Below are positions 20,699-32,690 of a stretch of DNA of 34,651 nt, piece after piece. The notes under the pieces are model-generated. The model did not search any database and had not been told where the DNA came from. It worked only from the letters and a program-made list of their open reading frames with translations. Numbering within the stretch: the stretch's first letter is position 1; every line of letters begins with the position of its first letter. The DNA is from an uncultured Pelagibacteraceae bacterium (GTDB taxonomy: Bacteria; Pseudomonadota; Alphaproteobacteria; Pelagibacterales; Pelagibacteraceae). The DNA lies in assembly GCA_902533775.1 (NCBI GenBank), contig CACANA010000010.1:1-34651 (forward strand). The letters are read 5' to 3'. The translations under genes were made by a program, and so were the position numbers.

Positions 20699-21985
20699 AT
20701 GGCAATTACTTATATAAAAAAAGCTGAGAAAACTGCATTTACAGGTGAAGATGAAACAAGAACAAAAGTAAGTTCAATTTTAAAAGAATTAGAAAAAACA
20801 AAGGACCAAGGGGTTAAAGATATTTTAAAAAAATTTGATAATTATGAAGGTGATATAATTGTTAGCAAAGAAAAAATTGAAGAAATAAACAAAACTTTAG
20901 ATCAAAAAATTAAAGATGATATTCAGTTTTCTCATGAAAGAGTAAGAAAGTTTGCAGAACATCAACTAGAAAATCTTGGAAAAGACTCAGAAGTTGAATT
21001 ATCACCTGGTTTAATAGCAGGACAAAAATTAATACCTGTAAATACGGTTGGGTGTTACGTACCCGGTGGAAGATATAACAATATCGCCTCTGCTATAATG
21101 AGTGTAACGACTGCAAAAGTTGCCGGAGTAAAGAATGTAATTGCAACAAGTCCACCCAAAGATTCAAATGGTGCAAACCCAATTATAATTTATACGGCTA
21201 ACCTTTGTGGTGCAGATGTAATTATGAACATTGGTGGTATAGGGGCAATTGGTGCGCTTGCATATGGTTGCTTTGGTAATCCAGAGGTAGATATGATTGT
21301 TGGACCTGGAAATAAATTTGTAGCAGAGTCTAAAAGAATTTTATTTGGAAAAGTTGGAATTGATTTATTTGCTGGACCAACAGAAATAGGCATAATAGCT
21401 GATCATACAGCTGATAAAGAAATAATTGCTTATGATTTAGTTGGACAGGCTGAACATGGCCCTGATTCTCCAGCTTGGCTTTACACTACAGATAAATCTT
21501 TATGTGATTATGTGATGAAAAGAGTTCCGGAAATTATTCAAGAACTACCTGAACACAACAGAAATAATGCTGATGCTGCATGGAGAGATTATGGAGAAGT
21601 AATTATGTGTGATACCAAAGAAGAAATGTTAAAGGTTAGTGATGAATATGCTCCTGAACATTTAGAGGTTCAGGCTGAGAACTTAGATTGGTATTTAAAA
21701 AATTTAAAAAATTATGGTTCATTATTTTTAGGTGAGGAAACAACAGTTGCATATGGTGATAAATGTTCTGGACCAAATCATATTTTACCAACAAAGGGAG
21801 CAGGAAAATATACTGGCGGCTTATACGTTGGAAAATTTATAAAAACAGTTACTTACCAAAAAATGAACAAAGAATCTAATAAAGAAGTCGGTGCTGCTGC
21901 GGCTCGAATTTCAAGGTACGAGGGTATGGAAGCGCATGCTAGAACTGGTGATGTTAGACTTCGAAAATATGGTTTTTCAAACTAA
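20699..21985 (+). CDS. Histidinol dehydrogenase family protein, probably HpsN-like (sulfopropanediol 3-dehydrogenase type) rather than HisD
   Basis: HisD-fold motifs (VGCYVPGGRYNNIASAIMSVTTAKVAGV, VGPGNKFVAESKRILFG, GLDLFAGPTE-like, GQAEHGPDSPAWL) with HpsN-like signatures WRDYGEV, NYGSLFLGEETTVAYGDK, GPNHILPTKGAGKYTGGLYVGKFIKTVTYQ. Confidence 0.8.
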   Translation: MAITYIKKAEKTAFTGEDETRTKVSSILKELEKTKDQGVKDILKKFDNYEGDIIVSKEKIEEINKTLDQKIKDDIQFSHERVRKFAEHQLENLGKDSEVELSPGLIAGQKLIPVNTVGCYVPGGRYNNIASAIMSVTTAKVAGVKNVIATSPPKDSNGANPIIIYTANLCGADVIMNIGGIGAIGALAYGCFGNPEVDMIVGPGNKFVAESKRILFGKVGIDLFAGPTEIGIIADHTADKEIIAYDLVGQAEHGPDSPAWLYTTDKSLCDYVMKRVPEIIQELPEHNRNNADAAWRDYGEVIMCDTKEEMLKVSDEYAPEHLEVQAENLDWYLKNLKNYGSLFLGEETTVAYGDKCSGPNHILPTKGAGKYTGGLYVGKFIKTVTYQKMNKESNKEVGAAAARISRYEGMEAHARTGDVRLRKYGFSN

Positions 21986-22010: not shown

Positions 22011-23552
22011 ATGAGTAAAGAAAAAACAGTAAAAAACTCATTCAAAGATTTTGCCAAACAAAACGGCGAATATTACAGTAAAGTTTTCAGTTTAATTCAA
22101 AGAAACCAATTAAAATTATATCATATAAACTATTCGGCTCTTTTAGGAGGTTTTTTTTGGTGTGCTCTAAGAGGGAACTGGTTTCTTTTTTTTCTAAGTT
22201 CATTTTTAGATTTAATAGCTGCAGTAAATATAACTTTATATTTTAGATATGGTGCAGGTATTAAACAAGCAATATTAGATAAAAAAGATTTTTTGGTTGA
22301 TAGATACTCAACCTGGCAAGATAGTTCTTTAATTTATGCAATTTTAACTATTATCTTAGGACGAATATTAATTGGTTGGTTAGCAGATAGAGTTTACATC
22401 AAACAATTTGATAAGTGGCAAATAAGTAAAAAAACATCATCAGGTTTTAACTTCTCAAGACTTATAAACGTTTTTTTAGTTTTAGCATTAATTTGGCCTT
22501 TAACATTATATAGATCATCACAATTCGCTCCTGATGAAAGAACTTGTATCAAACAACATAGAGCAATGGAAAAAGGTGCTGAGGTATCTTTTAAAAAAAG
22601 ATTTGATTGTTTCTTTATATCTGAATTTCCTATTTTAATTTGGATAGATAGACCTGTTAAAGTTAGCTATCCACGAAATGAGGATGGCACTAGATATGTA
22701 AAGAAAAAACCTCCTAGAGAAGGAATGCCTACAATTACTCTTAATAAATATGTTTCACAAAAAATTGAAGAAAAAGTTGGTTATTTAACCGCATTTCACG
22801 GATATGTTTTTGATGCTGCAACAGATGGAATAAGGTCATTGTTAAAAGGAATATCTGCTTTATTTGTTGGAACACCGTGGATAATCACGGGTGGAATATT
22901 TTTACTTGTAGCTCATAAGATTGCAGGATTTAGAGTTACCATGTTTGTGGCTTTTGCATTGATCTACCTCGCCTTGTTTGGTTTTTGGAATACAGCAATG
23001 GATACTATGGCTTTAGTATTAACCGCTACTTTAATTTGTTGTGCAATTGGACTGCCTTTGGGGGTTTTGGTTGGAAAATCAAATCGAGCTGAAACAATTA
23101 CAAGGCCTATTCTAGATGTTATGCAAACGATTCCTTCATTTGTATATTTGATACCAGCGGTTGCTTTTTTCTCTGTTGGAAAACCACCAGGAATTATTGC
23201 AACTGTAATATTTGCAATGCCCCCAATAGTAAGATTAACAGCTTTAGGAATTAGACAAGTTCCATCAGAAATTAAAGAAGCAGCTCTCGCTTTTGGTTCT
23301 ACAGAAAGACAACTATTGTATAGTGTTGAGTTACCACTCGCCCTTCCCTCTATAATGGCTGGTATAAATCAAGTAGTCATGATGTGTTTATCAATGGTTG
23401 TTATTGCTGCTTTAATTGGTGCCGGAGGAATGGGTCTAATAGTTGTTGAGGCTTTAGCGAACACAAAAATTGGAAGAGGAATTTTAGCAGGTCTTGCAAT
23501 TGCTTTTATAGCTATGATCATTGATAGAGTTGTACAGAAAGCCACAAAATAA
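22011..23552 (+). CDS. ProW/OpuAB-type ABC permease with long N-terminal membrane extension
   Basis: C-terminal BPD_transp_1 (LPLGVLVGKSNRAETITRPILDVMQTIPSFVYLIPAVAFFSVGKPPGIIATVIFAMPPIVRLT); N-terminal roughly 270 aa extra. Confidence 0.9.
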   Translation: MSKEKTVKNSFKDFAKQNGEYYSKVFSLIQRNQLKLYHINYSALLGGFFWCALRGNWFLFFLSSFLDLIAAVNITLYFRYGAGIKQAILDKKDFLVDRYSTWQDSSLIYAILTIILGRILIGWLADRVYIKQFDKWQISKKTSSGFNFSRLINVFLVLALIWPLTLYRSSQFAPDERTCIKQHRAMEKGAEVSFKKRFDCFFISEFPILIWIDRPVKVSYPRNEDGTRYVKKKPPREGMPTITLNKYVSQKIEEKVGYLTAFHGYVFDAATDGIRSLLKGISALFVGTPWIITGGIFLLVAHKIAGFRVTMFVAFALIYLALFGFWNTAMDTMALVLTATLICCAIGLPLGVLVGKSNRAETITRPILDVMQTIPSFVYLIPAVAFFSVGKPPGIIATVIFAMPPIVRLTALGIRQVPSEIKEAALAFGSTERQLLYSVELPLALPSIMAGINQVVMMCLSMVVIAALIGAGGMGLIVVEALANTKIGRGILAGLAIAFIAMIIDRVVQKATK

Positions 23553-24620: not shown

Positions 24621-25709
24621 TCAATCATTTTTAATTTTTTCAAACACATCAATACCTATTTGCTTTAAAATATGGACTATATCGATAGGCACCCAGTTCT
24701 CTCTAATTAATCCTTCATCGTGATGATAAAAATCCATTACTCTCATAACAACATCTTGATTGTCAGCTGTATATCCAAGCCAATCATTTGATCCATACTT
24801 TGCCTTTAAACTATGCCATCCACCACATAAAGAAAATTTTCCGTCTCCAATTTCGCAATAATGTCCTAATTCCCAATAATTTCTCTCAGAAAATGATTTT
24901 CTAAAAGGTAACTGATGCATATCTACAAATCCTTCTAATGACCTCGATGTTCCAATTCCACAAGGACCGTACCAAATCATATCTTTGTGCCAAAACTCTT
25001 TTTGAGGATGAGTTATTAACCTTTGTCTTAATTCATCTTTAGAAATATTTTCTTTCTCAGGTTTAATATCTAAACTTCTATTCATGCTCAAAGCCTGTTG
25101 TAATGAATTTTTAGATTTACTCATGTCTTCTTCAAAAAAATTTACTCCATCTGTATTAAACGGAGGTAACCATGCTCCTTCGGATCCTCTTGATGGATTA
25201 ATAACCCATTTATCAGCTTGTCTTAAAAAATCCATCACATCAATTAAGATATGACTTTCAATAATTCTTTCATTTTTAATTTCATGAATTTCACAACATT
25301 TAAGATTAATCATTTTAAAATTTGGCTTTATACCTAACCAAGGCTTTAAAAAGAAACCTGATAAAGTAGAATAAGAACCAACTTGGACTTTGTCTCTAAA
25401 AGAGCCTCCAAGGATGATATTTTCTCTTCTTTCGATGTCTGGAAATGCATCAAATAAAGGATTCCAAAATTTTTCTATAAAATTATCTATGCCATTAAAT
25501 TCATTTAATGGTTCAAAACAATTAACTTTGATATCTTTATCAAATATATTTAGTAAATTTTTTTTAAGATTAATCTTTTTTAATCCATAAATATTTCTAA
25601 AATTCTTAATAACAAATTTTTTATTATTTAAGTTTTGGATAGGTGTAATTTCTACATCTTCAATGTTTTTCTTAATTTTAAGACCTGTATCAAATTGTTC
25701 TATTTGCAT
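24621..25709 (-). CDS. Double SnoaL/NTF2-like domain protein
   Basis: Start at ATG 25709 (MQIEQFDTGLKIKK...); two SnoaL-like segments: NEFNGIDNFIEKFWNPLFDAFPDIERRENIILGG and ...GTSRSLEGFVDMHQLPFRKSF...ENWVPIDIVHILKQIG. Confidence 0.72.
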   Translation of the reverse strand: MQIEQFDTGLKIKKNIEDVEITPIQNLNNKKFVIKNFRNIYGLKKINLKKNLLNIFDKDIKVNCFEPLNEFNGIDNFIEKFWNPLFDAFPDIERRENIILGGSFRDKVQVGSYSTLSGFFLKPWLGIKPNFKMINLKCCEIHEIKNERIIESHILIDVMDFLRQADKWVINPSRGSEGAWLPPFNTDGVNFFEEDMSKSKNSLQQALSMNRSLDIKPEKENISKDELRQRLITHPQKEFWHKDMIWYGPCGIGTSRSLEGFVDMHQLPFRKSFSERNYWELGHYCEIGDGKFSLCGGWHSLKAKYGSNDWLGYTADNQDVVMRVMDFYHHDEGLIRENWVPIDIVHILKQIGIDVFEKIKND

Positions 25710-25750
25710 AAATTGCAATTTATATTTAAATAGAGATAAATAACAAGAAT

Positions 25751-26689
25751 ATGATTGATAGATTGGCAAAATTTAATGAGCTCGTTCCGAGTAGCCTCCC
25801 TTTTGTAGAGGGTAGATTAGAAGGTCATAAAGAAAGAAAAAATTATACAATTATTGGACGTGGTGTCGCTGAAGACACCAAACAACTAATAAAAATACAG
25901 TCTTTACATGGGTATAATTTAGGAGCAGTGAGTGCTATGCCAAAAAATGGATCTGGTCTTCACAGTCATACTACGGCTGAAGTGTTTGTAATTTACTCAG
26001 GTAAATGGAGATTTTATTGGGGTGCTGATGGAAAACAAGAAACAATATTAGAAGCTGGCGATATAATTTCAATGCCTACAAATATGTTCAGAGCATTTGA
26101 AAATGTTGGAGATAAAGAAAGTTTGATGTTTGTTGTATTAGGCGGAGATGATCCTGGTATAATAACATGGGTTCCAGAAATTTTAAAAAGGGCAAAAGAG
26201 ACCGGTATGGCATTGCTTGATGATAATTCGTTAATAGATTTAAAAAAGGTAGAAGTGCCTAACGGTAGAAAGATGATAGAGCCTATCACTCAAGATGAAT
26301 TAGAAAGATTTGATAATTATTTGCCAGAAGAATTAGAAAAAAATATTTATAGAAATAAACAAAACAATATTAGCGATGAAGTTAATGGTATTAAATTATT
26401 TCAAGTATTAGGAAACAAATTTAATAAAAAAACTTATGAACCTTCAATCAAACAAGATACTGGATTTAATTTAACAACATTAAATTCTATATCTGGTGAA
26501 ATTAAAGGTATTGAATGTATAAAGCCTACCGTTCTTTTTGCTCAAGAAGGTAATTGGAAAATAGTAATAGGAAACTCAAATATAAAATTAGAAAAAGGAG
26601 ACACTTTTTCAGTTCCTTTGAGTAGCAAAATAGATATCTCTTGTAATAATTCAGAAAATAGTATTTTAAATTTTGTTAGTCAGATCTAA
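25751..26689 (+). CDS. Cupin domain-containing protein (probably two cupin domains)
   Basis: GSGLHSHTTAEVFVIYSGKWRFYWGADGKQETILEAGDIISMPTNMFRAFENVG is a clear cupin; C-terminal NWKIVIGNSNIKLEKGDTFSVPLSSKIDI resembles a second degenerate cupin. Confidence 0.82.
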   Translation: MIDRLAKFNELVPSSLPFVEGRLEGHKERKNYTIIGRGVAEDTKQLIKIQSLHGYNLGAVSAMPKNGSGLHSHTTAEVFVIYSGKWRFYWGADGKQETILEAGDIISMPTNMFRAFENVGDKESLMFVVLGGDDPGIITWVPEILKRAKETGMALLDDNSLIDLKKVEVPNGRKMIEPITQDELERFDNYLPEELEKNIYRNKQNNISDEVNGIKLFQVLGNKFNKKTYEPSIKQDTGFNLTTLNSISGEIKGIECIKPTVLFAQEGNWKIVIGNSNIKLEKGDTFSVPLSSKIDISCNNSENSILNFVSQI

Positions 26690-27648
26690 TGAAAGGATTT
26701 GATAGTAATTATAAAAATTTAACTGATTACATTTTAAAAATTACTAAACAAATTTGGGAAGGGAAAGATGTCGAGTCGATATCTAAATATTATTCAGAGA
26801 ATATCCCCGTAAGATCACCCTTTGGAATAACTTATGGTTTTAAACCTGTTATTGATGCAACTTATAAAACTTTAGACGAATTTCCAGACAGACAATTATT
26901 AGGTGAAGATGTAATTTGGAGTGGAAATGACGATGAAGGATATCATTCATCTCACAGAATTCTGAGCAAAGCTACACATTTAAATGACGGGTATTACGGA
27001 AAAAAAACAGGAAACAAAATTGTTTATAGAGTTATAGCTGACTGTGCATGTAAAAATAATCAGGTTTATGATGAGTGGATTGTAAGAGATCAAGGTGCAA
27101 TGGTTCGACAGCTAGGTTATACACCTGAGCAATTCGCAAGGCATTTAATTGATAAAGAAGGTGGGGCATCTAAAGCTATCAAAGTTTATAATAGATCTTC
27201 TGATAAAAAGTCAGAGTATACTCCAGTAAAAGTTGATGAAGATTCATCAGGTTATATATATTCAAATATTTTAAAGAAAATATTTAATAATGATTATGAT
27301 TTTGAAGATTATGATAGAGCAGCTAGTCTATTTTGGCCAAGTAATAAAGTTGGAAATGGCAGTGATGATATAATTAAATATTGGAGCTCTTTAAAAAATA
27401 TATTTTCTGAAATAAAGTTTACAATCGAACATGTTGCATCATTAGATGAAAAAAATAACAATCAAAAAGCTACAATCAGATGGTTTTTAAGTGGTATGCA
27501 TTCTAAAGACAGTGAAGAATTTGGGAAAAAGACTGACAAAGATTTATTTATAATGGGTATAAATCATGCAGAATTAAGAGATGATAAAATAATAAGAGAA
27601 TGGGTATTGTTTGATGAAGTGGCTATTTGGAAACAAATATTAATGTAA
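26689..27648 (+). CDS. Double SnoaL/NTF2-like domain protein
   Basis: YYSENIPVRSPFGITYGFKPVIDATYKTLDEFPDRQLLGEDVIW and second repeat ending GINHAELRDDKIIREWVLFDEVAIWKQI. Confidence 0.72.
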   Translation: MKGFDSNYKNLTDYILKITKQIWEGKDVESISKYYSENIPVRSPFGITYGFKPVIDATYKTLDEFPDRQLLGEDVIWSGNDDEGYHSSHRILSKATHLNDGYYGKKTGNKIVYRVIADCACKNNQVYDEWIVRDQGAMVRQLGYTPEQFARHLIDKEGGASKAIKVYNRSSDKKSEYTPVKVDEDSSGYIYSNILKKIFNNDYDFEDYDRAASLFWPSNKVGNGSDDIIKYWSSLKNIFSEIKFTIEHVASLDEKNNNQKATIRWFLSGMHSKDSEEFGKKTDKDLFIMGINHAELRDDKIIREWVLFDEVAIWKQILM

Positions 27649-27653
27649 AAACT

Positions 27654-28781
27654 ATGGATAAAATTAAAACCACACATGTTGGAAGTCTGCCAAGATCAAA
27701 AAAACTATCTGAAATACTTTTTAAAAAAGATAAAAATGAATTATTTAATCAAGGAGAACTTGATAAGATAATTGAAGAAGATGTAAACAAAATTGTAAAA
27801 AAACAAATTGATATCGGAATTGACATTGTAAGTGATGGTGAAATGTCAAAAATAAGTTACGCTACCTACGTCAAAGATCGATTACATGGCTTTAGTGGTG
27901 AAAGCGAAAGAAGAGCTCCTAAAGACTTAGATGATTTTCCATCATATAAAGAAAAAATTGCAAAATCAGGAGGCACACCTACTTATACAAGACCATGTTG
28001 TACTGCTGATTTAAAAATTAAAGATACTAAATCTTTAACTAAAGATATCAGTAATTTAAAATCTGCATTAAAAAAAAATAACCATTCTCAAGGATTTATA
28101 AACTCTGCATCACCAGGAGTAATTTCAAATTTCCTTCCAAACAAATTCTATAAAAATGACGATAAGTATTTAGAGGCATTATCAAAAATGATGAAAACTG
28201 AATATGATGAAATAACAAAAAATGATTTATTATTGCAAATTGATTGTCCAGATCTTGCACTTGCAAGACATATGACTTTTAAAAATGTATCAGATGAAGA
28301 ATTTTTAGTAAGAGCTGAAAAACAAATCGAATGTCTTAATGAAGCAATCAAAGATATCGATGCCTCTAAGTTGAGAATGCATATCTGCTGGGGAAATTAT
28401 GAAGGACCACATATTCACGATATTGGATTAGAAAAAATATTACCTATTGCTTTAAAAGCAAATATCCAAACTTATTTAATTGAAGCCTCGAACCCAAGAC
28501 ATGCTCATGAATGGCAGGTTTTTGAGAATATTAAACTTCCTAATGATAAAGTAATAGTTCCTGGTGTAATAGACTCAACCTCAAACTTCATAGAGCATGA
28601 AGAGTTAGTAAAAAATAGAATAATTCAGTATTCAAAAGTAATTGATAAAGATCAATTGATGGCTGGAAGTGATTGTGGATTTAGTACTTTTGCAGGCTTT
28701 GGAAATGTTGATGAAAATATTGTTTACAAGAAATTTGAATCTTTAGTCGCAGGTGCAGAGCTTGCGTCAAATGCGATTTAA
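27654..28781 (+). CDS. MetE C-terminal-like (cobalamin-independent methionine synthase II family) protein
   Basis: KTTHVGSLPRSKKLSEIL N-terminus; Zn-ligand-like HICWGNYEGPH and GSDCGFSTFAGFG. ATG at 27654 preferred over 27627 (avoids overlap). Confidence 0.85.
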   Translation: MDKIKTTHVGSLPRSKKLSEILFKKDKNELFNQGELDKIIEEDVNKIVKKQIDIGIDIVSDGEMSKISYATYVKDRLHGFSGESERRAPKDLDDFPSYKEKIAKSGGTPTYTRPCCTADLKIKDTKSLTKDISNLKSALKKNNHSQGFINSASPGVISNFLPNKFYKNDDKYLEALSKMMKTEYDEITKNDLLLQIDCPDLALARHMTFKNVSDEEFLVRAEKQIECLNEAIKDIDASKLRMHICWGNYEGPHIHDIGLEKILPIALKANIQTYLIEASNPRHAHEWQVFENIKLPNDKVIVPGVIDSTSNFIEHEELVKNRIIQYSKVIDKDQLMAGSDCGFSTFAGFGNVDENIVYKKFESLVAGAELASNAI

Positions 28782-28854
28782 AAACTACTTTTAAATTCCC
28801 TAAGGAATATATATCCTTTCATCCATAAATTTAAATTTAATGAGGGAAACAAAT

Positions 28855-30075
28855 ATGAAAAAAATATTAATATCTTTATTGTTTCTTCTTTTTGGAACTT
28901 CTGTTTACGCAGATTGTAACATTAAGAGTGGATCAATAAATATTTTAGCTAATGATTTTCCAGCTTTAAGAACTTTCGTGGAAACAGCTAAAGGATGTAA
29001 AGGAAGTGCGGATTTTAAAGTCACACATTCATCTGAGCACAATAAAATTGCTGTGCCAGCTCTAACTGCAAATCCATCGGAGTTTTCTGCAAGAATTGCA
29101 GCAAATAGCTCTATAGTTCCTTTGATGAACCAAGACTTAATTAGACCACTTGATGATCTTGTTAAGAAATATGGAAAAGGAATACAAGACTCTCAATTGA
29201 TAACAATTGATGGAAAAATAATGGCAGTTGCTTTTATGGCAAATACTCAGCACTTATATTACAGAGAAGATGTTTTAAAAGAATTGGGTATAGCTGTTCC
29301 TAAAACATATGAGGAAGTAGTTGCGGCATCAGAAAAAATAAGAGCATCTGGTAAAATGCAATATCCTTACGCAGCAGCATACAAAGCTGGTTGGAATTTA
29401 GCAGAAGAATTCGTTAACATGTACATTGGACATGGAGGAGAATTCTTTAAAGCAGGAACTGCTCAACCAAGCATTAACAATACAAAAGGTGTAGCAACAT
29501 TAAATATGCTAAAAAAATTAGCAGGTTTAAGTAACCCAGATTATTTAACTCACGATAGTGAAGCTATTAAAGTTGAATGGGAATCTGGAAATGTTGCATT
29601 AATGACCCTTTGGGCATCAAGATCAGGAACATTGCTTGATGATGATGGTGATGCAAAAATTACAGCTGCAACTAAATTAACTGGACCAGCAACAGTTGCT
29701 GGAGGAAACATACCAGCGGCGACTTTATGGTGGGACGGTTTCACATTAGCAAAAAATAGATCTGACGCTGATGCTGAAGCAACATTTAGAGCTTTGGCAC
29801 ACGCAGCTGCTAACAAAAAGATGGTTGCAGATGCAGCGGATCAAGCTGTTTGGTTAATTGAAGGTTTTAAACCTGGACCAAAATCAATTGGAGTTATCGA
29901 AGCTGTTAAAATGAAAGCTAAACCATATCCAATGTTACCACAAATGGGTTTAATGCATGGTGCATTAGGAAGTGAGATTGTTGAATTTTTACAAGGTAAA
30001 GAGTCAGCAGAACAAGCTTTAAAAGATGTGGAAGCAGCTTACATGAGTAAAGCAAAAGAACAAGGCTTTCTATAA
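28855..30075 (+). CDS. Carbohydrate-type (family 1) ABC transporter substrate-binding protein
   Basis: Signal peptide from ATG 28855 (MKKILISLLFLLFGTSVYADC) preceded by GAGGGA SD; YYREDVLKELGIAVPKTYEEVVAASEKI; precedes MalF/MalG-like permeases. Confidence 0.9.
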   Translation: MKKILISLLFLLFGTSVYADCNIKSGSINILANDFPALRTFVETAKGCKGSADFKVTHSSEHNKIAVPALTANPSEFSARIAANSSIVPLMNQDLIRPLDDLVKKYGKGIQDSQLITIDGKIMAVAFMANTQHLYYREDVLKELGIAVPKTYEEVVAASEKIRASGKMQYPYAAAYKAGWNLAEEFVNMYIGHGGEFFKAGTAQPSINNTKGVATLNMLKKLAGLSNPDYLTHDSEAIKVEWESGNVALMTLWASRSGTLLDDDGDAKITAATKLTGPATVAGGNIPAATLWWDGFTLAKNRSDADAEATFRALAHAAANKKMVADAADQAVWLIEGFKPGPKSIGVIEAVKMKAKPYPMLPQMGLMHGALGSEIVEFLQGKESAEQALKDVEAAYMSKAKEQGFL

Positions 30076-30087
30076 TCAATAAATTTT

Positions 30088-30111
30088 AAGTGGGGATGAA
30101 AATCCCCACTT
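30088..30111 (+). terminator. Hairpin with GAAA tetraloop 3' of the carbohydrate-type SBP
   Basis: AAGTGGGGAT-GAAA-ATCCCCACTT, perfect 10-bp stem, no following T-tract. Confidence 0.75.
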
Positions 30112-30120
30112 ATTACATTA

Positions 30121-31149
30121 ATGCCTAACAAAACTTTTTTTTGGTTTTTCTTGCCAACTGGATTGGCAATGATTTTATTTATAGGTCTTCCTATTATTTC
30201 AACAGGGATACAATCATTTTATGCGCAGCACGACCAAGTAGTTAAGGAAGTAAAAAAATGTGATCCTTTTGGATGTACAGTTTCTATAGTTGTTGACCAA
30301 GAAAAAACCTCAAAAATTCGAGAAGAAAAGCCTTTAGGAAAATTCAACGGATTTGGGACTTATGTAGATAGAAATCATCTTGCAATAGAAGAAATTGGAA
30401 AATTTTGGAATGAAACTAATAGTTTTGAGGAATTTGTAGATCAAGTTACCAACCTACCCTTTTACAAGGCTCTAATTTTTACTTTAACTTATTGTTTGTT
30501 TGTAACGCCTAACGTCTTACTTTTAGGTTTTATAATTGCATTAAGTCTTAATGCAGTAACTAGAAGAATTAGAGGGCCACTAATATTTGGAACCATATTG
30601 CCGATGATTGTTACTCCATTGGTGGGTTCTTTAGTTTTATTTTGGATGATAGATGCAGAAGGAATTATTGGCGCGAATTTGCAGATGTTAATGGATGACC
30701 CTTATTTATCGTTAAAATCCTCAAAAACTCTTACTTGGATAACTATAATAATTTATGGAATTTGGCACCATTCACCATTTGCTTTTGTAGTATTTTATGC
30801 AGCTTTACAAACTGTTCCCCAAGAACCTGTTGAAGCAGCTATTATTGATGGAGCATCAAGATGGCAGAGAGTAAGACATATTGTTTTGCCTCATATTTAT
30901 CCCGTAGTTACATTTGTTGCTCTTATTTCATTGATGGATAATTTTAGAGTTTTTGAGCCCATAATTGGTTTCAGTGCTGAAGGAAGCGCTCAGTCTTTGT
31001 CTTGGTTGATTTATGACAATCTCGTAAATGAGGAAGTAATATTATTTGGTTCAGCCGCTGCCACTTCAATGATGACAATTGTTGGTATAGCGATACTTTT
31101 AGCACCAGTTTTAATAAGAACTTGGAAAGAATTTAGGACAGCTAGATAA
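30121..31149 (+). CDS. MalF-type ABC sugar permease
   Basis: EAA-loop EPVEAAIIDGASRWQRVRHIVLPHIYPV; located between SBP and MalG-type permease. Confidence 0.9.
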   Translation: MPNKTFFWFFLPTGLAMILFIGLPIISTGIQSFYAQHDQVVKEVKKCDPFGCTVSIVVDQEKTSKIREEKPLGKFNGFGTYVDRNHLAIEEIGKFWNETNSFEEFVDQVTNLPFYKALIFTLTYCLFVTPNVLLLGFIIALSLNAVTRRIRGPLIFGTILPMIVTPLVGSLVLFWMIDAEGIIGANLQMLMDDPYLSLKSSKTLTWITIIIYGIWHHSPFAFVVFYAALQTVPQEPVEAAIIDGASRWQRVRHIVLPHIYPVVTFVALISLMDNFRVFEPIIGFSAEGSAQSLSWLIYDNLVNEEVILFGSAAATSMMTIVGIAILLAPVLIRTWKEFRTAR

Positions 31150-32031
31150 ATGGAATACGGACTTGATAAAAGATCGAATGCTTTAAAAATTTTTAATACA
31201 ACCTTTATAATAGTTTGGTTGTTGGTTGCATGCTTTCCATTTATTTGGACTTTCTGGGGATCATTTAAAGTAAGAGCTGATTTTTTTTCAAGAGCTGACT
31301 GGTGGTATGCTATTACAGCATTCAATACGTTGTTAGAAACTGGAGGAAAGTTTACAACAGATGCTTATAGTCAAGCATGGACAGAAGGAGAGTTTTGGAA
31401 AGCATCTAGAAATACAGTTATAGTTACATTTTTTGTTGTAACCATTTCATTGTTCCTCGGGACCTTAGGAGCTTACGCTTTATCTAGGTCTACAAGAAAT
31501 TACGCATTTTGGATTTTAATTGCTGCATTAATTTTTAGAGCAATGCCTCATATTACATTAGTCTCTGGTTATTTATTTCCTTTTTTTCAATTACAAATTT
31601 GGGGAATACTACCAACAACCATTGTTGTTCTTGTTGCAATAAATCAACCATTTACTTTGTGGTTATTGTATTCATTTTTTAAAACTGTTCCTAAAGAACT
31701 TGATGAAAGTGCTTTAATTGATGGCTGCTCTTATTTTCAAGCATTTAGACATATCATTATGCCAGTTATGTGGCCTGGAGTAATAACAGCTGGATTATTT
31801 AGTTTAATGCTTGCGTATAATGATTTTACAGTGACAGCTCTTTTATTAAATCAGGAAAATCATACTATGGTACCCAAAATCCAAAGTTATCTTGGAACAA
31901 ATCAACATGAAGGTAATTTGATGTGGGCTGTTTCAGCAGTTGTTTCAGCTACTGCTCCTTTATTTATGTTAGTTATGTTTTTCCAAAGACAAGTAATCAG
32001 TGGATTAACAGCTGGTGCTGTGAAGGGATAA
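31150..32031 (+). CDS. MalG-type ABC sugar permease
   Basis: WTFWGSFKVRADFF, TVIVTFFVVTISLFLGTLGAYALSR, KELDESALIDGCSYFQAFRHIIMPVMWPGVITAGLF. Confidence 0.92.
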   Translation: MEYGLDKRSNALKIFNTTFIIVWLLVACFPFIWTFWGSFKVRADFFSRADWWYAITAFNTLLETGGKFTTDAYSQAWTEGEFWKASRNTVIVTFFVVTISLFLGTLGAYALSRSTRNYAFWILIAALIFRAMPHITLVSGYLFPFFQLQIWGILPTTIVVLVAINQPFTLWLLYSFFKTVPKELDESALIDGCSYFQAFRHIIMPVMWPGVITAGLFSLMLAYNDFTVTALLLNQENHTMVPKIQSYLGTNQHEGNLMWAVSAVVSATAPLFMLVMFFQRQVISGLTAGAVKG

Positions 32032-32690
32032 TGAGTTACAAAGCTGTTTTATTTGGTTCTATTGGAACTTTAGCTGAGACTTCAGATCTTCAAAGAGATG
32101 CATTTAATGAAGCTTTTAAAATAAGTGGATTAGACTGGTTTTGGGATGAAGATATATACAGAAAACTATTGTCAAAATCAGGTGGAACTACGAGAATTAA
32201 TGATTACGCAAAAGATACTAGTGTTGAAATAGACGGAAAAAAAATAAGAAATTTAAAAACCAAAATTTTTAATGAATATTTAAACAAACACAAAGTTGAG
32301 CCTAGAGACGGTGTAAAAGAAATAATTCAATTTTGCAAAAAGAACAAAATTAAAATTGGGCTTGCTAGCTCAACAACAAGTAACAATATCAATTCTATAT
32401 TTAACTCGTTAAGAGGAAGAATTGAAAAAAAAGATTTTGATTTTATCGGCAATAATGAATTCATATTAAGAGAAAAACCATATCCCGATATTTATAATTA
32501 TGCTTTAAAATACTTGAATATTAACTCAGACGAATGTGTGGCAATTGAAGATACAGAAGAAAGTTTAAATTCTGCTTTAAGTGCAGATATAAAATGCATT
32601 GCGTTTCCTGGAAAATATCACACTCAATACGAATTTGATGGAAACTATTTAAAGGTTAATAAATTATCAAAAAAAATCTTTAATAAATAA
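32031..32690 (+). CDS. HAD-superfamily protein (CbbY/beta-phosphoglucomutase-like) lacking the motif I aspartates
   Basis: ATG at 32031 overlaps permease TAA; MSYKAVLFGSIGTLAETSDLQRDAFNEAF, ASSTTSNN (motif II), REKPYPDIY (motif III Lys), AIEDTEESL (motif IV). Motif I reads FGSIGTL rather than FDxDGTL. Confidence 0.85.
   Translation: MSYKAVLFGSIGTLAETSDLQRDAFNEAFKISGLDWFWDEDIYRKLLSKSGGTTRINDYAKDTSVEIDGKKIRNLKTKIFNEYLNKHKVEPRDGVKEIIQFCKKNKIKIGLASSTTSNNINSIFNSLRGRIEKKDFDFIGNNEFILREKPYPDIYNYALKYLNINSDECVAIEDTEESLNSALSADIKCIAFPGKYHTQYEFDGNYLKVNKLSKKIFNK

Follow-up and report, generated by a model that had tools for sequence, protein, structure and literature searches.

A conserved SAR11 gene cluster joining double-SnoaL, bicupin and MetE-type proteins to a sugar-type importer, and its relation to a larger marine operon

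What does a SAR11 bacterium do with two double-SnoaL proteins, a bicupin, a stand-alone MetE-type enzyme, a sugar-type importer and a degenerate phosphatase-fold protein encoded side by side? The genes lie at 24621-32690 of contig CACANA010000010.1 (34,651 nucleotides, here called the window), one of the 53 contigs of a 965-kb, 74% complete genome of an uncultured Pelagibacteraceae bacterium (assembly GCA_902533775.1). We find the cluster to be real, conserved and undescribed in the literature searched, with known families in a new combination. With moderate confidence, we read it as the form that a widespread marine operon takes in SAR11; this operon would import and degrade an O-methylated, hydroxylated small molecule. 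The MetE-type enzyme would transfer the methyl group, and the SnoaL and bicupin proteins would process the skeleton.

Gene order and conservation in SAR11

The first gene of the cluster, SnA (24621-25709, minus strand), is divergent from the rest. On the plus strand follow CUP (25751-26689), SnB (26689-27648), METE (27654-28781; start ATG 27654 preferred over TTG 27627), the solute-binding protein gene SBP (28840-30075), the permease genes PERM1 (30121-31149) and PERM2 (31150-32031), and the pseudo-HAD gene of the haloacid dehalogenase (HAD) fold (32031-32690). TAATG overlaps join CUP to SnB (common A at 26689) and PERM2 to pseudo-HAD (common A at 32031). The SnA start is the ATG common to relatives (MQIEQFDTGLK, in an alignment of six SAR11 copies); an alternative longer start, TTG 25769, would overlap CUP. 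Between the SnA and CUP starts lies a probable shared control region (25710-25750), around which a promoter scan gave promoter-like matches at chance level. The window contains no Rfam elements. An earlier, sequence-only reading of this DNA had drawn the same open reading frames, strands, junctions and overlaps. Its estimate of about 41 bp between the divergent starts is exactly right, and Pfam agrees with its domain calls (double-SnoaL pair, double cupin, MetE-C, importer, pseudo-HAD).

The order SnA<CUP>SnB>METE>SBP>PERM1>PERM2>HAD is kept in 18 of the 19 SAR11 cluster loci mapped, and the remaining locus (L040) meets a contig edge right after SnB. Besides the window's own genome, 54 of 296 genomes of the order have a match to SnB (55 of 297 with it included). 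Most are full-length and either 96-98% or 64-71% identical; the others are a small number of fragments at contig edges and one weak match, a single 136-amino-acid SnoaL protein in an unrelated neighbourhood (genome G027), which we rejected as a cluster. Across the class, 29 of 385 sampled genomes match the SnB profile and 69 match the METE profile at E≤1e-90. The sequence-only reading had staked its case on conservation beyond this genome and had guessed at Rhodobacterales; the cluster is conserved in both order and class, and Rhodobacterales are among its carriers.

Between SAR11 clades, 4-fold degenerate sites differ at a proportion of 0.45-0.72 and are about equally saturated across all cluster genes. 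Because the eight-gene order is kept across clades although these sites are saturated, it goes beyond chance. The importer proteins (SBP and both permeases, 28840-32031) are 91-95% identical between clades, with SBP alone at 92-94%; for the enzymes the figure is 59-78%, for the HAD protein 50-56%. Recent transfer as the source of the high importer identity is ruled out by the saturated silent sites. Since saturation is alike in all genes, that identity reflects purifying selection and not recent exchange, and the importer is under unusually strong constraint.

Proteins of the cluster

METE (375 amino acids) is a predicted MetE C-domain-like Zn/thiol methyltransferase. PF01717 (Meth_synt_2) is the sole family above cut-off, and the protein has no N-terminal folate domain. 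Alignments place the zinc ligands at H243, C245, E277 and C341 and the homocysteine positions at S11, E63 and D197 (Ser433, Glu484 and Asp599 of MetE); both sets are invariant in the operon family. A MetE C-domain alone, with the HCEC zinc set and the S/E/D homocysteine set, is also the make-up of the core, folate-independent methionine synthases MesA-MesD, in which the roles of these residues have been described (Price et al. 2021, PMC7857596). METE is, however, only distantly similar to them, has no apparent MesX neighbour and sits within a catabolic-looking operon rather than a biosynthetic locus. It also falls below every NCBIfam cut-off: the best score is 103.9 bits (PRK04326) against 406, and the full-length MetE model TIGR01371 gives 42.7 against 929.95. 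Among solved structures, METE comes closest to 1YPX and to the MesD structure 3RPD (the latter at E 1e-6), and it has QIDCPD where MesD has its DEP motif. MesX (DUF1852) had no match in 10 genomes, and the control genomes gave no match either. We read METE as a putative further, undescribed family among the core MetE-type methyltransferases. The six cluster-bearing SAR11 genomes tested have no other Meth_synt_2 protein, and two genomes without the cluster have none at all. Since every one of these genomes also encodes proteins of another S-methyltransferase family (PF02574), METE need not serve to supply methionine.

SnA (362 amino acids; SnoaL 60.8 bits, SnoaL_2 28.9 bits) and SnB (319 amino acids) each contain two SnoaL/SnoaL_2 regions above the Pfam gathering score (PF07366/PF12680). 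A search of the window genome with SnoaL_4 (PF13577), the wrong family for these two proteins, gave no match. The AlphaFold model of SnB has two SnoaL barrels at a mean predicted local distance difference test score (pLDDT) of 93.9, and its closest solved folds are single-domain SnoaL-type polyketide cyclases and isomerases. CUP (312 amino acids) scores above cut-off for Cupin_2 and Cupin_1, and its model (pLDDT 80.6) has two cupin barrels that match bicupins such as vicilins and oxalate decarboxylase. Motif 1 of the N-terminal barrel, HxHxxxE, is invariant (H71, H73, E77), and the motif-2 histidine is Arg114 in all sequences aligned. CUP thus departs from the four-ligand type, and because Arg replaces this His, a three-ligand metal site is expected. 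PDB sequence searches with the CUP and SnA profiles found no matches.

The pseudo-HAD protein (219 amino acids; Pfam HAD_2) has FGSIGT for the DxDGT of motif I. Both catalytic Asp residues are lost in all six SAR11 copies aligned, in locus L077 and in SUP05, and GSIG is kept in locus L080 and in Roseivivax. In SUP05 (L164) and Roseivivax (L173), the gene stands between the cupin and MetE-C genes. Because both Asp residues are gone, the motif is conserved and the gene lies inside the operon in these two lineages, the protein is predicted to be a conserved non-phosphatase, perhaps with a structural or ligand-sensing role. Of the 385 class genomes, 29 have related HAD genes, and only some of these 29 have the cluster.

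The importer is of the CUT1 kind (MalEFGK, UgpABCE, SmoEFGH), with an extracellular, MalE/UgpB-like SBP (SBP_bac_1) and two BPD_transp_1 permeases. PERM1 is MalF/UgpA-like, with UgpA as its best NCBIfam model, below cut-off; PERM2 is MalG/UgpE-like, below cut-off to the GlcU/MalG models. Distant solved relatives of the SBP bind sugars, polyols and sulfoquinovosyl glycerol. Unlike those systems, the cluster has no kinase or glycosidase gene, and in the window clade it has no ATPase gene, hence its importer gene set is incomplete there. A MalK/UgpC-type ATPase gene comes next after SnA in most of the 64-71% relatives and is absent from L022 and the window clade; in the rest of the window genome, the closest ATPase has 57% identity and is encoded on a different contig.

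Two side observations concern this importer. A stem-loop between the SBP and PERM1 genes (30087-30112; 11-bp stem, 4-nt loop) is of a type able to raise the transcript level of a solute-binding protein gene. Some SAR11 relatives have a second importer after the SnA-linked ATPase, which may serve both; one such locus (L021, 1-4481) also has a glucosylglycerate-hydrolase-like gene, making it a candidate glucosylglycerate uptake system.

No curated NCBIfam model scored above cut-off for the SnoaL, cupin, MetE-C, SBP or permease proteins, and a full-text search of the open-access literature found no paper describing this gene combination. The sequence-only reading could name no known pathway with this combination, and none came to light in that literature. 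Neither of the two outcomes that would have overturned it, a cluster confined to this genome or a match to a documented pathway, was observed. Within that scope the first half of its label, candidate undescribed catabolic system, stands; the catabolic role, like the substrate, can be put forward only conditionally, as is done below.

The larger operon outside SAR11

A scan of named genomes confirmed 588 METE relatives, the best 80 of which were mapped as loci. In these and in plasmid records from Ruegeria, Marinovum and Octadecabacter, the operon runs SBP-PERM1-PERM2(-ATPase)-SnoaL-HisD-SnoaL-SDR-LacI-SnB-CUP-METE-hydrolase-RraA, where SDR is a short-chain dehydrogenase/reductase. METE is present in all 80 loci, some of which are cut by contig ends, followed in frequency by the cupin (74), SnB (72), LacI (71), SDR and SnoaL (69 each), HisD (67), the permeases (55 and 54) and the hydrolase (52). 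RraA was counted in 57, a figure that pools two gene labels, a reference first labelled UbiE having proved RraA-like. Carriers are mainly marine Rhodobacterales, besides some Gammaproteobacteria; the groups named beyond Rhodobacterales are Thioglobus/SUP05, Granulosicoccus, and metagenome-assembled genomes of Porticoccaceae and Rhizobiaceae. An intermediate form is found in small genomes of families f32 and f142 (L076-L078), where the HisD gene directly follows SnA; in f32, RraA adjoins SnB as well. The SAR11 cluster is best read as a shortened version of this operon, mostly without HisD and RraA.

The LacI regulator is of the RbsR type, the hydrolase is PcaD-like and the SDR resembles KduD/gluconate-5-dehydrogenase. 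RraA belongs to the RraA/aldolase family and carries an R-D motif; two distant versions of the operon have a GarL/HpaI-like aldolase. The HisD protein is of the HpsN superfamily. Its closest solved relative is the sulfopropanediol 3-dehydrogenase HpsN, but it forms a distinct subfamily, 47% identical to the HpsN of the window, and this operon type is found only outside SAR11 proper. The remark that no standard sugar-degrading enzyme is present holds for the window. Outside SAR11, LacI, SDR, HisD-like, PcaD-like and RraA-type genes are added, and these additions support a catabolic role.

The main evidence for methyl-group chemistry comes from four sphingomonad-type contexts (Croceicoccus, Novosphingobium pentaromativorans and two further genomes), where METE homologues (42-47%) occur with an IclR regulator. 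Adjoining them are a DesA-type (aminomethyltransferase-family) O-demethylase, MetF and, in stretches long enough to include them, PurU and/or FolD. Three of the four include a small SnoaL protein, and in Croceicoccus both DesA and LigK are above their NCBIfam cut-offs. METE homologues are found in syringate-type clusters of sphingomonads. The syringate/3-O-methylgallate pathway (DesA, LigM, LigAB, LigK and the SnoaL tautomerase MgaD) resembles the marine operon in having genes that handle methyl groups, a protein of the SnoaL type and an aldolase of the RraA/LigK type. For syringate breakdown in Pseudomonas NGC7, a SnoaL protein is the proposed tautomerase (PMC12314914). In contrast, the marine operon has neither a GcvT-type (tetrahydrofolate-dependent) O-demethylase nor an aromatic ring or extradiol dioxygenase among its cluster genes, and has a sugar-type importer and a LacI regulator instead.

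Other settings of METE homologues were also seen. Plasmids of Dietzia and Rhodococcus (L075, 7992-12341; L108, 7989-12351) hold another undescribed MetE-C context, in the order MetE-C homologue, 2-oxoglutarate oxygenase, GPR1/FUN34 transporter, PhyH-like dioxygenase and HD-domain protein. A plasmid of the haloarchaeon Halobellus limi (L109, 2750-9143) has five consecutive SnoaL 'ester cyclase' genes and then a MetE-C gene (40% to METE); the other haloarchaeal METE neighbourhoods had no partners in common.

Proposed function and alternatives

From the gene set, its conservation, the residues and the contexts, we infer a substrate class, an order of reactions and a methyl acceptor. The substrate would be cyclitol- or sugar-like, with at least one methoxy group; the full operon suggests a CH2OH group as well. 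It would enter through the MalFG-type importer and SBP, under LacI control in the full operon and, in the window clade, with an ATPase encoded elsewhere. METE, as a Zn-thiolate enzyme, would demethylate the substrate or a derivative independently of folate and B12, passing the methyl group most likely to homocysteine, to give methionine, or to a similar thiol. SnA, SnB and the bicupin may then isomerise, dehydrate, hydrolyse or oxidatively open what is left of the skeleton, with the SDR also taking part. Of the enzymes added in the full operon, the HisD-like one would turn CH2OH into a carboxylate, by analogy with HpsN, and the PcaD-like hydrolase would open a lactone or dione. An RraA-type aldolase would finally split a 4-hydroxy-2-oxo acid into pyruvate and a second acid. 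The chemistry of RraA/LigK aldolases is established and suggests a 4-hydroxy-2-oxo diacid intermediate. SAR11, mostly without the last steps, may harvest just the methyl and side groups.

One specific form of this proposal, which we consider unlikely, is that the operon serves as the missing bacterial route for mycosporine-like amino acids and gadusol, which act as sunscreens in the ocean, the SAR11 front half yielding methyl groups and glycine or serine. HisD would oxidise the ring CH2OH to COOH, METE would strip the enol-ether methyl to methionine, again with neither B12 nor folate, and the SnoaL proteins would free the amino acids. The cupin would open the reductone to 4-carboxy-4-hydroxy-2-oxoadipate, for cleavage by RraA to pyruvate and oxaloacetate. 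The mycosporine/gadusol ring (methoxy, tertiary alcohol, CH2OH) leads on paper to exactly this acid, an unproven exercise, and no pathway for bacterial mycosporine degradation was found in the literature searched. O-methylated sugars or inositols are close rivals as substrate.

Several points weigh against the demethylation proposal. All SAR11-proper genomes tested lack the operon-type HisD and only one has RraA, so the full route is not readable onto the window. The operon RraA is remote from LigK (32% over 88 amino acids), so LigK is no sure guide to its substrate. METE homologues below about 58% identity lie mostly in unrelated neighbourhoods, and the contexts in Sphingobium, Dietzia, Rhodococcus and Pantoea give no clear pointer to the function. 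The methyl group could also come from methyl-folate made elsewhere, with METE a mere sink.

The likeliest alternative, one we take seriously without thinking it probable, is that a sugar or uronate, ordinary or O-methylated, is degraded by a non-phosphorylative route. The SDR would oxidise the sugar and the hydrolase open the lactone. Dehydration or isomerisation would fall to SnoaL or cupin proteins, and an RraA/HpaI-type aldolase would cleave a 2-keto-3-deoxy acid, while METE just recycled methyl groups. The CUT1-type importer, the LacI/RbsR regulator, the KduD/gluconate-5-dehydrogenase-like SDR and the GarL/HpaI-like aldolase of two distant versions all fit this route. However, there is no sugar kinase or classic dehydratase, and the constant METE, the HisD and the several SnoaL paralogues are left unexplained.

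METE might instead be a Zn-dependent thiol-adding or lyase enzyme like epoxyalkane:coenzyme M transferase, acting on an epoxide or thioether, an assignment we regard as quite doubtful. That enzyme is of the same fold family and similar size, and QIDCPD in place of the MesD motif would suit such a change of function. METE nevertheless keeps all three homocysteine-binding positions, and the four sphingomonad-type contexts indicate methyl/C1 chemistry. The homarine pathway was rejected: the open-access literature gave no paper on it that involves these genes, and the enzymes of the cluster do not suit it.

It is highly improbable that the cluster belongs to the neighbouring taurine/dihydroxypropanesulfonate island and, with its HpsN (20699), processes a C3 sulfonate or sulfo-sugar: the adjoining taurine genes, the genuine HpsN-like protein and the distant resemblance of SBP to the sulfoquinovosyl-glycerol-binding SmoF speak for it, but HpsN-type genes also occur in cluster-free SAR11 genomes (G003, G005), the operon HisD is a separate subfamily, and outside SAR11 the full operon does not usually adjoin sulfonate genes. 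The protein at 20699 was rejected as the HisD of the pathway, being a genuine HpsN type that cluster-free SAR11 genomes have too.

The island itself precedes the cluster at 443-23552. Its HpsN-like protein scores 512 bits to the HpsN structure 8V35. By reading of the translations, it also encodes a TauE-like exporter, an alanine dehydrogenase, a taurine-pyruvate-type aminotransferase, a TauABC-like importer, an SlcC-like dehydrogenase and a Pta-like protein. At 22011-23552 lies the gene for a ProW-type permease of 513 amino acids, the first 240 of which fit none of the permease models; a ProX-like solute-binding protein follows, with no adjoining ProV ATPase gene.

The demethylating operon proposed here is widespread and strongly conserved, and purifying selection on its importer is very strong. 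Its substrate is therefore probably a common dissolved compound that the picture of ocean carbon turnover does not yet include. METE would represent a further folate-independent MetE-type family, tied to catabolism and open to testing. The pseudo-HAD, although conserved and of the HAD fold, cannot work as a HAD phosphatase of the ordinary kind. Genetic work is feasible, since the carriers include named strains (Ruegeria, Shimia, Phaeobacter italicus, Marinovum).

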